From positions 620,001-684,000 of the forward strand of contig NZ_FPIY01000001.1 in the NCBI RefSeq assembly GCF_900119145.1: DNA of 64,000 bases, in the 5' to 3' direction. Positions 29,943 to 37,803 of this stretch are shown one piece after another. Origin of the DNA: Cellulophaga fucicola (lineage in GTDB: Bacteria > Bacteroidota > Bacteroidia > Flavobacteriales > Flavobacteriaceae). Positions within the stretch are counted from its first letter, which is position 1. Each line of letters begins with the position of its first letter. Position numbers and translations under genes: made by a program. The notes under the pieces are model-generated. The model searched no databases and had not been told where the DNA came from. It was given only the letters and a program-made list of their open reading frames with translations.

Positions 29943-30115
29943 CTTATATTTTTTTAGCTGATTTCTCTTTTTTAAAATAGCCTTACAACTTAATTGCAAA
30001 GCTACACAACAATAAAAGTTATGTTAACAACATACATTTTATAAAAAGGCAAAGGTACTATACTTTAGCTGTGTTGTTAAAGAGTAAAAAATTTTCATTT
30101 TCATATAGTGTTCTC

Positions 30116-30155
30116 AAAAAAAGAGTCTTAGCTTAATTGGTAAGACTCTTTTTTA
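30116..30155. terminator. Bidirectional terminator
   Basis: AAAAGAGTCTTA (to 30130) pairs with TAAGACTCTTTT (from 30141) around a 10-base loop, with T runs on both strands. It ends menB on the minus strand. Confidence 0.85.
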
Positions 30156-34704: not shown

Positions 34705-35568
34705 ATGAGGCAACTAAAGATTATCAAGCAGGTTACAAATAGAGAATCAAAATCACTAGACAAATACCTGCAAGATATCAGCAAAATAGATCTAATTACT
34801 GCAAATGAGGAAGTAGAGTTAGCTCAAAAAATACGTGCAGGCGACGAAGCTGCATTAGAAAAATTAACAACAGCAAATTTAAGATTTGTTGTTTCTGTTG
34901 CTAAACAATATCAAAATCAAGGTCTAAAATTACCAGATTTAATTAACGAAGGTAATGTTGGTTTGGTAAAAGCCGCTAAAAGATTTGATGAAACTAGAGG
35001 TTTTAAGTTTATATCTTATGCCGTTTGGTGGATTAGACAATCTATTTTACAAGCTTTAGCAGAACAATCTAGAATTGTACGTTTACCTTTAAACAAAATT
35101 GGTTCTATAAATAAAATTAAGAAAGCATTTTCTTATTTAGAGCAAACACACGAGAGACCACCTTCTGCAGAAGAGATTGCAAAAGAATTAGAATTGTCTG
35201 TAAGCGAGGTTAAACAGTCTATGAAAAATTCTGGGAGACACGTTTCTATGGATGCTCCTTTTAAAGAGGGTGAAGACTCTAACTTATATGACGTAATTAA
35301 ATACGGCGAGTCTCCTAATCCTGACGAAAAATTAATGCATCAATCTTTAAATACAGAGATTAACAGAGCATTAGAAACATTATCACCAAGAGAAGCAGAT
35401 GTTGTTAAGCTATACTATGGTATAGGAGATAAACATTCTATGACCCTAGAAGAAATAGGTCAGATTTTTGATTTAACACGTGAGCGTGTTAGACAAATTA
35501 GAGAAAAAGCAATTCGTAAATTAAAACATAATTCTAGAAGTAAAATCTTAAAAACCTATTTAGGATAA
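34705..35568 (+). CDS. rpoD: Primary RNA polymerase sigma factor
   Basis: 287 residues, the short primary sigma typical of Bacteroidota, lacking region 1.1. Region 1.2 ([16 protein letters not shown]), region 2 ([37 protein letters not shown]), region 3 and region 4.2 with its helix-turn-helix ([27 protein letters not shown]) are all clear. This sigma recognises the TTTG / TAnnTTTG promoters of the phylum. The gene is monocistronic with a strong terminator. Confidence 0.96.
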
Positions 35569-35580
35569 TTTATTTTTCTA

Positions 35581-35624
35581 GCATAAAAAAAGGAGCAACT
35601 TGTATGTTGCTCCTTTTTTTATGC
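35581..35624 (+). terminator. Rho-independent terminator of rpoD
   Basis: The perfect stem AGGAGCAAC (35591-35599) / GTTGCTCCT (35606-35614), extended by A/T pairing and GCAT/ATGC ends, with a T run at 35614-35620. Confidence 0.93.
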
Positions 35625-35649
35625 TTTTTTTTCAGTAATGTAGTAAATA

Positions 35650-35745
35650 CTAAGAATAATTTAGCTTGGTTACATTAATTTCTGATAAAATTTGATTCAG
35701 GCTCTCTACAAATGATAAATAAGCCGAGTTGTTTGGGTTTGCCAT
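35650..35745 (-). CDS. Micropeptide B (31 aa), paralog of the adjacent micropeptide
   Basis: ATG at 35743-35745, TAG at 35650-35652. The 31-residue product has no signal peptide or TM segment; residues 9-21 form an amphipathic helix. It aligns without gaps to the 32-residue peptide encoded 42 bp upstream, sharing the pattern YLxFxxxLNxILSx6LxY (10 identities in 22 positions). The bases before both starts also match (AAACCCAAA). This repeated conservation argues that both are translated genes rather than chance frames. Function unknown. Confidence 0.5.
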   Translation of the reverse strand: MANPNNSAYLSFVESLNQILSEINVTKLNYS

Positions 35746-35787
35746 AACAAAAGATTTTGGGTTTAACTTAAATAAATAACTAGAAAC

Positions 35788-35886
35788 TTATATATAATCT
35801 AATTCTATTAACTGGTTTAGACTTAAAATTTCATTTAAATCATGTAAGAAGTTTAGGTATTCTTCTCCGTATGTATCGTATAGCAT
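35788..35886 (-). CDS. Micropeptide A (32 aa)
   Basis: ATG at 35884-35886, TAA at 35788-35790. The product is acidic, with a likely amphipathic helix at 9-24 and the same YLxFxxxLNxILSx6LxY pattern as micropeptide B. It lies 207 bp downstream of the hybrid kinase on the same strand. An upstream stretch (35968-35987) resembles one upstream of the kinase. Inference: a small cytoplasmic regulator or partner that arose by tandem duplication, possibly linked to the kinase. Confidence 0.5.
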   Translation of the reverse strand: MLYDTYGEEYLNFLHDLNEILSLNQLIELDYI

Positions 35887-35943
35887 AATAAGTAGGTTAT
35901 TTGGGTTTCTAATCTTTTATAAAACTAAAGAAACACTACTTAT

Positions 35944-35987
35944 GTTACAACTAAATGTGGTGAACTTATTCTTTTTTGTTGTGAAAC
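35944..35987 (-). promoter_or_regulatory. Shared upstream motif, micropeptide copy
   Basis: On the minus strand GTTTCACAACAAAAAAGAAT (35987-35968) matches GTTTCACAACATAAAAAGAT (37928-37909) upstream of the hybrid kinase. A second block, ACATTTAGTTGTAAC (35958-35944), resembles 37903-37886. Both pairs sit 60-125 bp before a start codon on the same strand. Probably a regulator-binding site or paralogous promoter. Confidence 0.4.
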
Positions 35988-36093: not shown

Positions 36094-37803
36094 CTATGCT
36101 TCTTGTGCTAATCTTAGCAGTTCATCATCTAATTGTTGATCTATTATTGGATATTCTTCTACAAAACAGTTGTAAAGAAAGTTTAGATGTTTTACATCTA
36201 TATCATCTTTAATGGCATTTTCTATTTGAAGAACTGTATCATGTAAAGCTTCGGTTTTCATCATTTTTAAACCAGCTTTTATTTTATGAGTAGAAAATTT
36301 TAATCCCTCATAATCCTCATTTCTAATGTGTACAATAGCTTTACCAATAAACTCTAATGCATTATTTTTAAACAACCTAATTAGTTCTTGTAACATTCCT
36401 ATGTCTCCCATACACTCGTTTAAAACTGGTGTTAGATTTATTTTAGGAACATCTCCTTTGTCGTTTATATGATTACTTGTTAATGTTTCCATATTTGCAT
36501 TATTTTCAATTTGTTCTAACAAAGTACTAAGCAACTCGTCAGAAGTGTAGGGTTTAAGTAAAAATTCGGTAAAATTTAAGATATTAAATTCGGTACTAGT
36601 TCTTATGTCGTGATCTGCTGTAACAGCAATTATAGGCGTATTTTTTACTCTTAGATCATTGTTGTTTCTAATTTCCTCAGCTATTACGTCTCCATTTTTA
36701 CCTGGCATTCTAAGATCCATTAAAATAATATCTATGGGGTTGTTTTCTAAAATTTCTAGACCAACATTACAATTGTCTGTAATAAAGGTTTTACAATTCC
36801 ATTTCTTAAGTTTAAGTTCTATTAATTTTTGATTTAACTTATTATCTTCAAAAATTAAAACTTTTATATCTGCAATACCTTTAGATAGTGAAGCTCTTGT
36901 AGGCTCTACTGGCTTTTTAAAAGGTAATATAAATGTAAATTTTGTGCCTGTATCTACTTTACTAGATACAGAGATAGTACCGTCTATTGATTCTATTAAT
37001 TGTTTAGCAACATTTAACCCAAGCCCTAAACTAGAATTATCTTGACTATAAAAATCAAAAACAGCATCTAATTTATCATCAGAAATTCCAAAACTAGTAT
37101 CTGTAACTGTAAACTCTATAAATACTTTATCATTAGTTTCTTCTATTAGCTTAGAAACAACCAAAATTTCTCCTTTTTGTGTGGTTTGCACTGCGTTACC
37201 AACTAGGTTTAAAAGTATCTGAGATAACTTAGAAGGATCTCCTATAAGGTCATTTGGTATTGTGTTAGTTGCAGTATAATTTAGCTTTAAAGATTTATTT
37301 AAAATTAAAGCATTACACAAAAACAATACATCCTTAACTATATTATGGAACTTAATGGTTGTGCACTCGTTAGTACCTATTGCATCATTACCAGTGTAGT
37401 CTATAATATCTTTAGATACAGTTAAAATATTATTAGATGATGCCTGAATCTCTTTTACTATTCTTTCTTGTTCCATAGTTAAGTTGCTTTTTAATAGTTT
37501 CTCAGAAAATTTTAGAATGCCATTTAGGGGAACGTTTATTTCTTTATTTGCTGCAGTAACCAGTAGACTTTGTAATGTTTGCTGTTTCTCTTCTAGTGTA
37601 GTTTTGTTAACAAGGTTATTGTTTGCTGTACAAAGATTGTTTAAGTTACCTTGTATGGTATTTTTATCTTCTAGTAAAGATTTAAAACTGTTTAATGCAT
37701 TCCTGAATTTATCTGCTTCTTTTGCAGATAATTCGTCAAAAGAAAAACGAGTAAGTTTTTCTTGCAAATTAGATAATGAAGTATGTAGGTCGTTCAATTT
37801 CAA
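36094..37803 (-). CDS. Degenerate hybrid histidine kinase with REC and HPt domains
   Basis: 569 residues, soluble, no TM segment. A coiled coil (1-75) is followed by a HisKA-like region (about 78-140) in which the H-box reads ANKEINVPLNGI: Lys87 replaces the phospho-acceptor His. The HATPase_c domain (145-296) keeps its N-box Asn but has altered G1 (DTSFGIS) and G2 (SLGLGL) boxes. The REC domain (312-430) is intact with Asp363. A C-terminal HPt (about 465-560) carries His506 in THKIKAGL. Inference: a pseudokinase phosphorelay hub that takes phosphate from another kinase. Two micropeptide genes lie downstream. Confidence 0.88.
   Translation of the reverse strand: MKLNDLHTSLSNLQEKLTRFSFDELSAKEADKFRNALNSFKSLLEDKNTIQGNLNNLCTANNNLVNKTTLEEKQQTLQSLLVTAANKEINVPLNGILKFSEKLLKSNLTMEQERIVKEIQASSNNILTVSKDIIDYTGNDAIGTNECTTIKFHNIVKDVLFLCNALILNKSLKLNYTATNTIPNDLIGDPSKLSQILLNLVGNAVQTTQKGEILVVSKLIEETNDKVFIEFTVTDTSFGISDDKLDAVFDFYSQDNSSLGLGLNVAKQLIESIDGTISVSSKVDTGTKFTFILPFKKPVEPTRASLSKGIADIKVLIFEDNKLNQKLIELKLKKWNCKTFITDNCNVGLEILENNPIDIILMDLRMPGKNGDVIAEEIRNNNDLRVKNTPIIAVTADHDIRTSTEFNILNFTEFLLKPYTSDELLSTLLEQIENNANMETLTSNHINDKGDVPKINLTPVLNECMGDIGMLQELIRLFKNNALEFIGKAIVHIRNEDYEGLKFSTHKIKAGLKMMKTEALHDTVLQIENAIKDDIDVKHLNFLYNCFVEEYPIIDQQLDDELLRLAQEA

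Follow-up and report, generated by a model that had tools for sequence, protein, structure and literature searches.

Two short open reading frames of Cellulophaga fucicola, A and B, are strongly supported by comparison across genomes as genuine, related micropeptide genes, forming a conserved paralogous pair that is absent from the family libraries searched here. They lie in a window of 64,000 nucleotides (contig NZ_FPIY01000001.1, positions 620,001 to 684,000 of the forward strand), to which all coordinates below refer unless another contig is named. The comparison shows the coding status of both genes, their homology to each other, a conserved promoter with repeats in front of the pair, and the presence of the same repeats before small RNAs; it is this rigid promoter signature that links the micropeptide pair to a multicopy small-RNA family. 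The apparent rpoD neighbour of the pair is revealed as a sigma paralogue.

Coding evidence for A and B

Both genes are read from the minus strand, A at 35788..35886 (32 codons, 32 aa, MLYDTYGEEYLNFLHDLNEILSLNQLIELDYI) and its paralogue B at 35650..35745 (31 codons, 31 aa, MANPNNSAYLSFVESLNQILSEINVTKLNYS), with a gap of 42 bp (35746-35787) between them. The initial annotation had placed two mutually similar same-strand frames here, with 10 identities in 22 ungapped positions, and our analysis confirms their coordinates, their spacing and their similarity. The score of the best ungapped alignment (YLNFLHDLNEILSLNQLIELDY for A and YLSFVESLNQILSEINVTKLNY for B, 10/22 identities) was reached by none of 20,000 composition-preserving shuffles, and alignment of the two family profiles with hhalign, as a single comparison, gave a probability of 96 and an E value of 4.9e-9, the core common to A and B being YxxFxxxLNxIL. 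On one side the pair is flanked by a hybrid histidine kinase gene (36094-37803, minus strand), and on the other by an RpoD-like gene (34705..35568, plus strand; sigma-70 regions recognised by Pfam), called RpoD2 here, which is convergent with A and B and lies outside their operon. Between B and RpoD2 sits a hairpin (35580..35625, given without a strand and listed by the scan on the plus strand only) that is probably a terminator for both sides; by a crude rule, a hairpin-plus-T5 pattern occurs within 100 nt past B in 78 of 98 loci.

Substitution patterns at both genes are those of coding rather than non-coding DNA, with pN/pS ranging over 0.08-0.13 for A and 0.25-0.33 for B and no internal stops. 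Pooling 21 genomes gave 0.13 for A and, over the last 27 codons, 0.32-0.33 for B, and distinct named sequences gave 0.08 (72 A sequences) and 0.25 (77 B sequences, last 25 codons). The other forward frames had pN/pS of 0.71 and 3.12 at A and of 0.72 and 1.24 at B, with 52-115 stops, and the reverse frames ran from 0.32 to 6.7, every one with stops. One reverse frame was low too, at 0.32 in A and 0.47 in B, and over the 21 sequences it contained 38 stops in A and 41 in B; the only stop-free frame in these 21 sequences is the coding forward one. Short open reading frames are common in this region: the 6 kb examined overlaps 53 such frames of 20 aa or more. A and B could on that ground be chance frames in an intergenic gap, but they have homologues, are under purifying selection and share a conserved promoter. 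The substitution pattern rules this reading out, and we give it practically no weight. Both outcomes that the initial annotation named as refuting it, missing homologues and substitutions like those of non-coding DNA, were looked for, and both tests came out on the side of coding genes.

Distribution of the pair

Homologues of A and B are present in related genomes. Strong A matches were seen in 21 of 60 genomes (own genome included), comprising all 18 Cellulophaga and three of other genera, with B directly downstream of A in 21 of 21; weak matches (E > 0.01) in seven (A) and five (B) genomes beyond the 21 were taken as chance. Among 397 sampled Flavobacteriaceae genomes, the A profile matched 73 at E < 1e-10, plus two with a divergent form (G061 and G289), and a reverse search with this divergent form returned exactly the same 75 genomes, from 44 of 237 genera. 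At E <= 0.1 the number rose to 100 of 397, and the 25 that the reverse search did not confirm were taken as chance. An order-level sample of 395 genomes, many of the same family, gave 16 matches at E <= 0.01, with nothing convincing outside Flavobacteriaceae: the two extra-family matches were weak and were rejected, one (E 0.002) containing a stop and the other (E 0.004) lying within a 536-aa frame.

A collection of species genomes yielded 244 related stretches, the best 80 of which we call the named loci. These come from Cellulophaga, Zobellia, Maribacter, Arenibacter, Eudoraea, Muricauda/Allomuricauda, Robiginitalea, Muriicola, Pricia and others. Of these best 80 loci, 77 have B after A, the three exceptions being one contig edge and two Eudoraea MAGs with a broken B, and B also comes after A in 25 of 25 additional family loci. 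In the two MAGs (L108 and L111), a deletion right after an intact A breaks B, which may reflect either loss of the gene or misassembly at a repeat. Five divergent A homologues (in G117, G327, G097, G061 and G289) had no B within about 260 bp. The lone A of G061 and G289 (loci L179/L180) begins MLYQIYGVEY and has a divergently read membrane-protein ORF on one side and a 433-aa ORF on the other; its leader is C-rich and the 21-bp repeats described below are absent from it.

This distribution bears on whether A and B work only jointly, as a heterodimer or a small helical bundle, perhaps at the surface of the membrane. Such an assembly would predict what most loci by far show, namely two paralogous helices encoded side by side, yet five genomes from three genera have A and no B, and the two Eudoraea MAGs with a broken B keep A. 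We regard strictly joint action as quite unlikely.

Neither A nor B had a match in Pfam or NCBIfam. The one marginal PHROGs match, for A only (E 0.083-0.095), was taken as chance, and a PDB profile search with A gave no match up to E 10. A plasmid collection contained no match to A, and a plasmid origin was set aside. No tRNA or tmRNA was found at the locus. In the open-licence PMC text reached by our search terms, we recognised no paper describing the A or B peptides.

Promoter and direct repeats upstream of the operon

Upstream sequence comparison indicates a promoter belonging to the operon itself, preceded by direct repeats spaced 21 bp. On the minus strand, an upstream half-site TTCACAACA (35977..35985) is followed 21 bp later by a downstream half-site TTCACCACA (35956..35964), then by a putative -33 element TTG (35948..35950) and a putative -7 element TAGTTTTA (35920..35927) of the Bacteroidota TAnnTTTG type, a flavobacterial -7 consensus quoted in PMC3587595. 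The order in the window is TTCACAACA-N12-TTCACCACA, TTTAG, TTG, 20 bp, TAGTTTTA.

We compared the promoter regions of 98 loci, which represent 91 distinct upstream regions. Two AC[AC]AC half-sites exactly 21 bp apart were present in 86 of the 91 (shuffles: mean 0.14, maximum 2), a TTG-N17-22-TAnnTTYR promoter in 85 (shuffles: mean 3.84, maximum 9), and the complete arrangement of repeats and promoter in 81. The half-site pair was absent from the five genomes with A only. A scan with the sigma-70 consensus, which is not built for Bacteroidota promoters, missed this promoter and found fewer sites than in shuffles.

A predicted small-RNA family with the same repeats

A triple 21-bp direct repeat with one mismatch lies elsewhere in the window, at 29985..30031 on the plus strand, followed by a predicted small RNA with a terminator hairpin (30082..30155, ends approximate, plus strand) that has no Rfam match at gathering score; across the window, no known RNA reached the Rfam gathering score, and weaker matches were taken as chance. 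The own genome holds at least six copies of this small RNA, including the one in the window, as counted in the stretches examined. Each unit is about 75 nt long and consists of a core, TTTTCATTTTCATATAGTGTTCTC, and a terminator hairpin, and the repeats before the units are triple ACAACA with a 21-bp period. Five perfect triple repeats in the own genome precede such near-identical small transcription units, three in tandem at C8:472265-472761 (minus strand) and two at C8:173449-173719 (minus strand). The core looks complementary to ATGAAAA-type start regions.

The operon and the small-RNA family appear to share a control signal. Scored with a weight matrix built from 18 small-RNA half-sites only, the A/B promoter takes second place in the window at 24.7, rank 4 scoring 12.4; ranks 1 and 3 are the window copy of the small RNA, which is part of the training set. 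With the same matrix, 84 of 91 upstream regions score best at a spacing of 21 bp. Triples with zero mismatches number seven in the own genome, two in an ACA run and five at small-RNA copies. At the same time, pattern counts over the own genome are not above their controls: a full-motif search recovered the operon without mismatch, with a total of 9 against 12 for the reversed pattern, and the totals for pattern and control were 47 and 60 with triple repeats and 146 and 267 with a looser doublet. Therefore, doublets alone define no regulon, and the argument for a single regulator comes from the perfect triples and the matrix results. A histogram of spacings was not used (14 intergenic pairs at 21 bp, 13 of them in loci picked for that pattern).

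ACAACA-like repeats with a 21-bp period were also seen at two other places in the own genome, C12:965001-965048, a short distance upstream of a 126-aa ORF (965143, plus strand), and C8:17825-17871, equally close upstream of an ORF starting MKKLFIVAITALGFTFAAQAQ (17945, plus strand); these are possible other targets of the same regulator.

Leader motif

The initial annotation was also correct that similar bases stand before both starts: a leader motif, AAACCCAAA, lies upstream of A (35900..35908, minus strand) and again upstream of B (35756..35764, minus strand). In the named loci, the 45 nt before the start contain CCCAAA in 46 of 78 leaders of A and in 31 of 77 leaders of B. Among the other ORFs of these loci the count is 10 of 336, with starts taken as first in-frame ATGs and therefore only roughly placed; the motif precedes none of 59 window ORFs. 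CCCAAA may be a translation or RNA-binding signal.

An alternative reading is that the functional product is mainly RNA, with A as a leader peptide, or the transcript as a dual-function small RNA, and CCCAAA as RNA-level control sites. The short transcript ending in a hairpin, the motif repeated before both cistrons and the promoter signal shared with the small-RNA family all agree with it. However, selection keeps the amino acids, with pS of 0.65-0.84 for A against pN of 0.07-0.09, and the same strand carries no large gene before the convergent sigma gene, leaving B as the sole target for attenuation. We consider a mainly RNA product very unlikely.

The RpoD-like neighbour

The initial annotation had placed the two frames next to rpoD. 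A sigma gene does adjoin them, but it is an RpoD paralogue and not the canonical copy. The own genome has three RpoD-like genes: the one at 34705-35568, a canonical-type copy at C21:53233-54093 and a more divergent copy at C8:573463-574320. We placed them in a midpoint-rooted tree with 52 rows, which combines one in four of the peptide-linked sequences with the three own copies and relatives. The 20 peptide-linked sigma factors group together (95/91), and the own C21:53233 copy falls among canonical RpoDs (100/99), whose group takes in 28 of the remaining 32 rows; neither group includes G027, G062, one G070 copy or the third own copy. We assign the neighbour as a paralogue because it groups apart from the canonical RpoDs in this tree.

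RpoD2 is convergent with the peptide genes and therefore not co-transcribed with them, and it holds this position beside them in 77 of the best 80 of 244 loci, the exceptions being L094 (contig end), L141 and L151. An RpoD2-type gene (at least 86% identity) was found in 67 family genomes; A is present in 67 of 67 and lies within 1.5 kb in 65 of 67. Conversely, six of the 73 genomes with a strong A match are missing from the RpoD2 list. Two of these, G344 (where a contig end cuts the gene) and G190 (where the match is in two pieces), do show RpoD2, and the other four (G175, G117, G327 and G097) have A and no RpoD2-type match, G097 being a poor assembly in which nothing matched RpoD, so that A does not constantly co-occur with RpoD2. 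In G175, A, B and the promoter are kept, with DUF6155 beyond, and no RpoD-like match was found in the 5.5 kb examined there; in G264, G297 and L141, the pair is located away from RpoD2. Since G175 keeps A and B without RpoD2 beside them, and other genomes have the pair elsewhere, gene order indicates that the link between the peptides and RpoD2 is one of strong synteny, not of dependence, and the position beside rpoD is a weaker clue than it first seemed.

These observations weigh on the idea that A and B are anti-sigma or co-sigma peptides dedicated to the adjacent RpoD2. The convergent neighbours in nearly all named loci and the near-constant proximity of A to RpoD2-type genes speak for it, as do the lone divergent A homologues, which have neither B nor an adjacent RpoD2. 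Linkage of this kind is, however, equally explained by vertical inheritance of a stable neighbourhood, and G175 and the three displaced pairs point away from a dedicated partner. We rate a dedicated sigma-directed role as unlikely, and RpoD2 itself, the main partner candidate by its position only, as no better than an outside choice.

Predicted structure and proposed role of the peptides

AlphaFold models suggest that A and B are each a single short helix, spanning residues 2-31 in A (mean pLDDT 77.1) and 6-22 in B (mean pLDDT 81.1). The net charge is -7 for A and -1 for B. Amphipathicity of the helix is not unusual for A, being as high in 2,140 of 20,000 shuffles; for B, the number is 396 of 20,000. 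The conserved Y, F, L, N, I and L positions suit docking of the helix on a partner.

The initial annotation had proposed small regulatory or partner proteins. The helix predictions, the strongly conserved, regulated-looking promoter and the lack of a known relative make this plausible. Our preferred reading, that A and B are partner-binding regulatory micropeptides made under a LytTR-like response, seems to us to fall only a little short of an even chance. According to this reading, the pair would encode paralogous intracellular micropeptides that arose through duplication within a single branch of Flavobacteriaceae, and the two-gene operon would be transcribed from its own TTG / TAnnTTTR promoter. 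A LytTR-type activator would bind the direct repeats, of 21-bp period, that closely precede the -33 element and would also drive the multicopy small-RNA family, the peptides being the protein arm of its response, with the helix of each docking on a protein partner, or on the other peptide, and tuning it. Activation of the operon, rather than repression, and a regulator of the LytTR type are what we infer, the latter by analogy, and the identity of the partner is a guess.

A broader version of this proposal is that a LytTR-type activator runs a two-armed response found only in these marine bacteria, with small RNAs acting on ATGAAAA-type starts and micropeptides binding a sigma factor or RNA polymerase, the second RpoD being the usual neighbour. 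We offer it as a long shot. If true, the micropeptide pair would retune transcription alongside the action of the small RNAs on mRNAs. The tie between the pair and the small-RNA family opens a so far unexplored signalling system of marine flavobacteria to direct testing.

Comparison with known systems

The DUF1127 proteins described as acting on PhoR (PMC12501420) resemble A and B, in the passages of that report considered here, in being short, in occurring in more than one copy per genome and in their proposed protein-protein contact; they have no known sequence relation to A and B, whose copies, in contrast, form one operon. The small-RNA family is likened, by description only, to Rfp18 (PMC9723704), which according to parts of that report is a flavobacterial small RNA with a strong fold, conserved in Flavobacterium and trans-acting.

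Two RpoD homologues have already been reported in Dokdonia (PMC3587595), which, like the genome studied here, has a second RpoD-like sigma factor beside the canonical RpoD. In the passages of that report considered here, the promoter preference of the second RpoD is not established and micropeptides are not mentioned.

The operon repeats have a parallel in the promoters of LytTR-family regulators. As given in passages of PMC6193735, LytTR sites are 9-bp repeats, for example ACCACTTAT, mostly 12 bp apart and placed just upstream of -35, with a bias to 10 bp before it. The operon agrees with them in having 9-bp direct repeats with a 12-bp spacer and a 21-bp period near the promoter, and in the AC[AC]AC core, with which ACCAC agrees. 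The repeats depart from the LytTR examples in their last four bases, however, and the distance from repeat to -33 is 2 bp (with the repeat read as ACCACATTT) against about 10 in LytTR promoters. Because the repeat end and this distance disagree, we suggest that the operon repeats work like a LytTR site and do not claim them as one. The LytTR examples in these passages are regulator-membrane-protein operons and bacteriocin genes, whereas here the repeats stand before a micropeptide pair.
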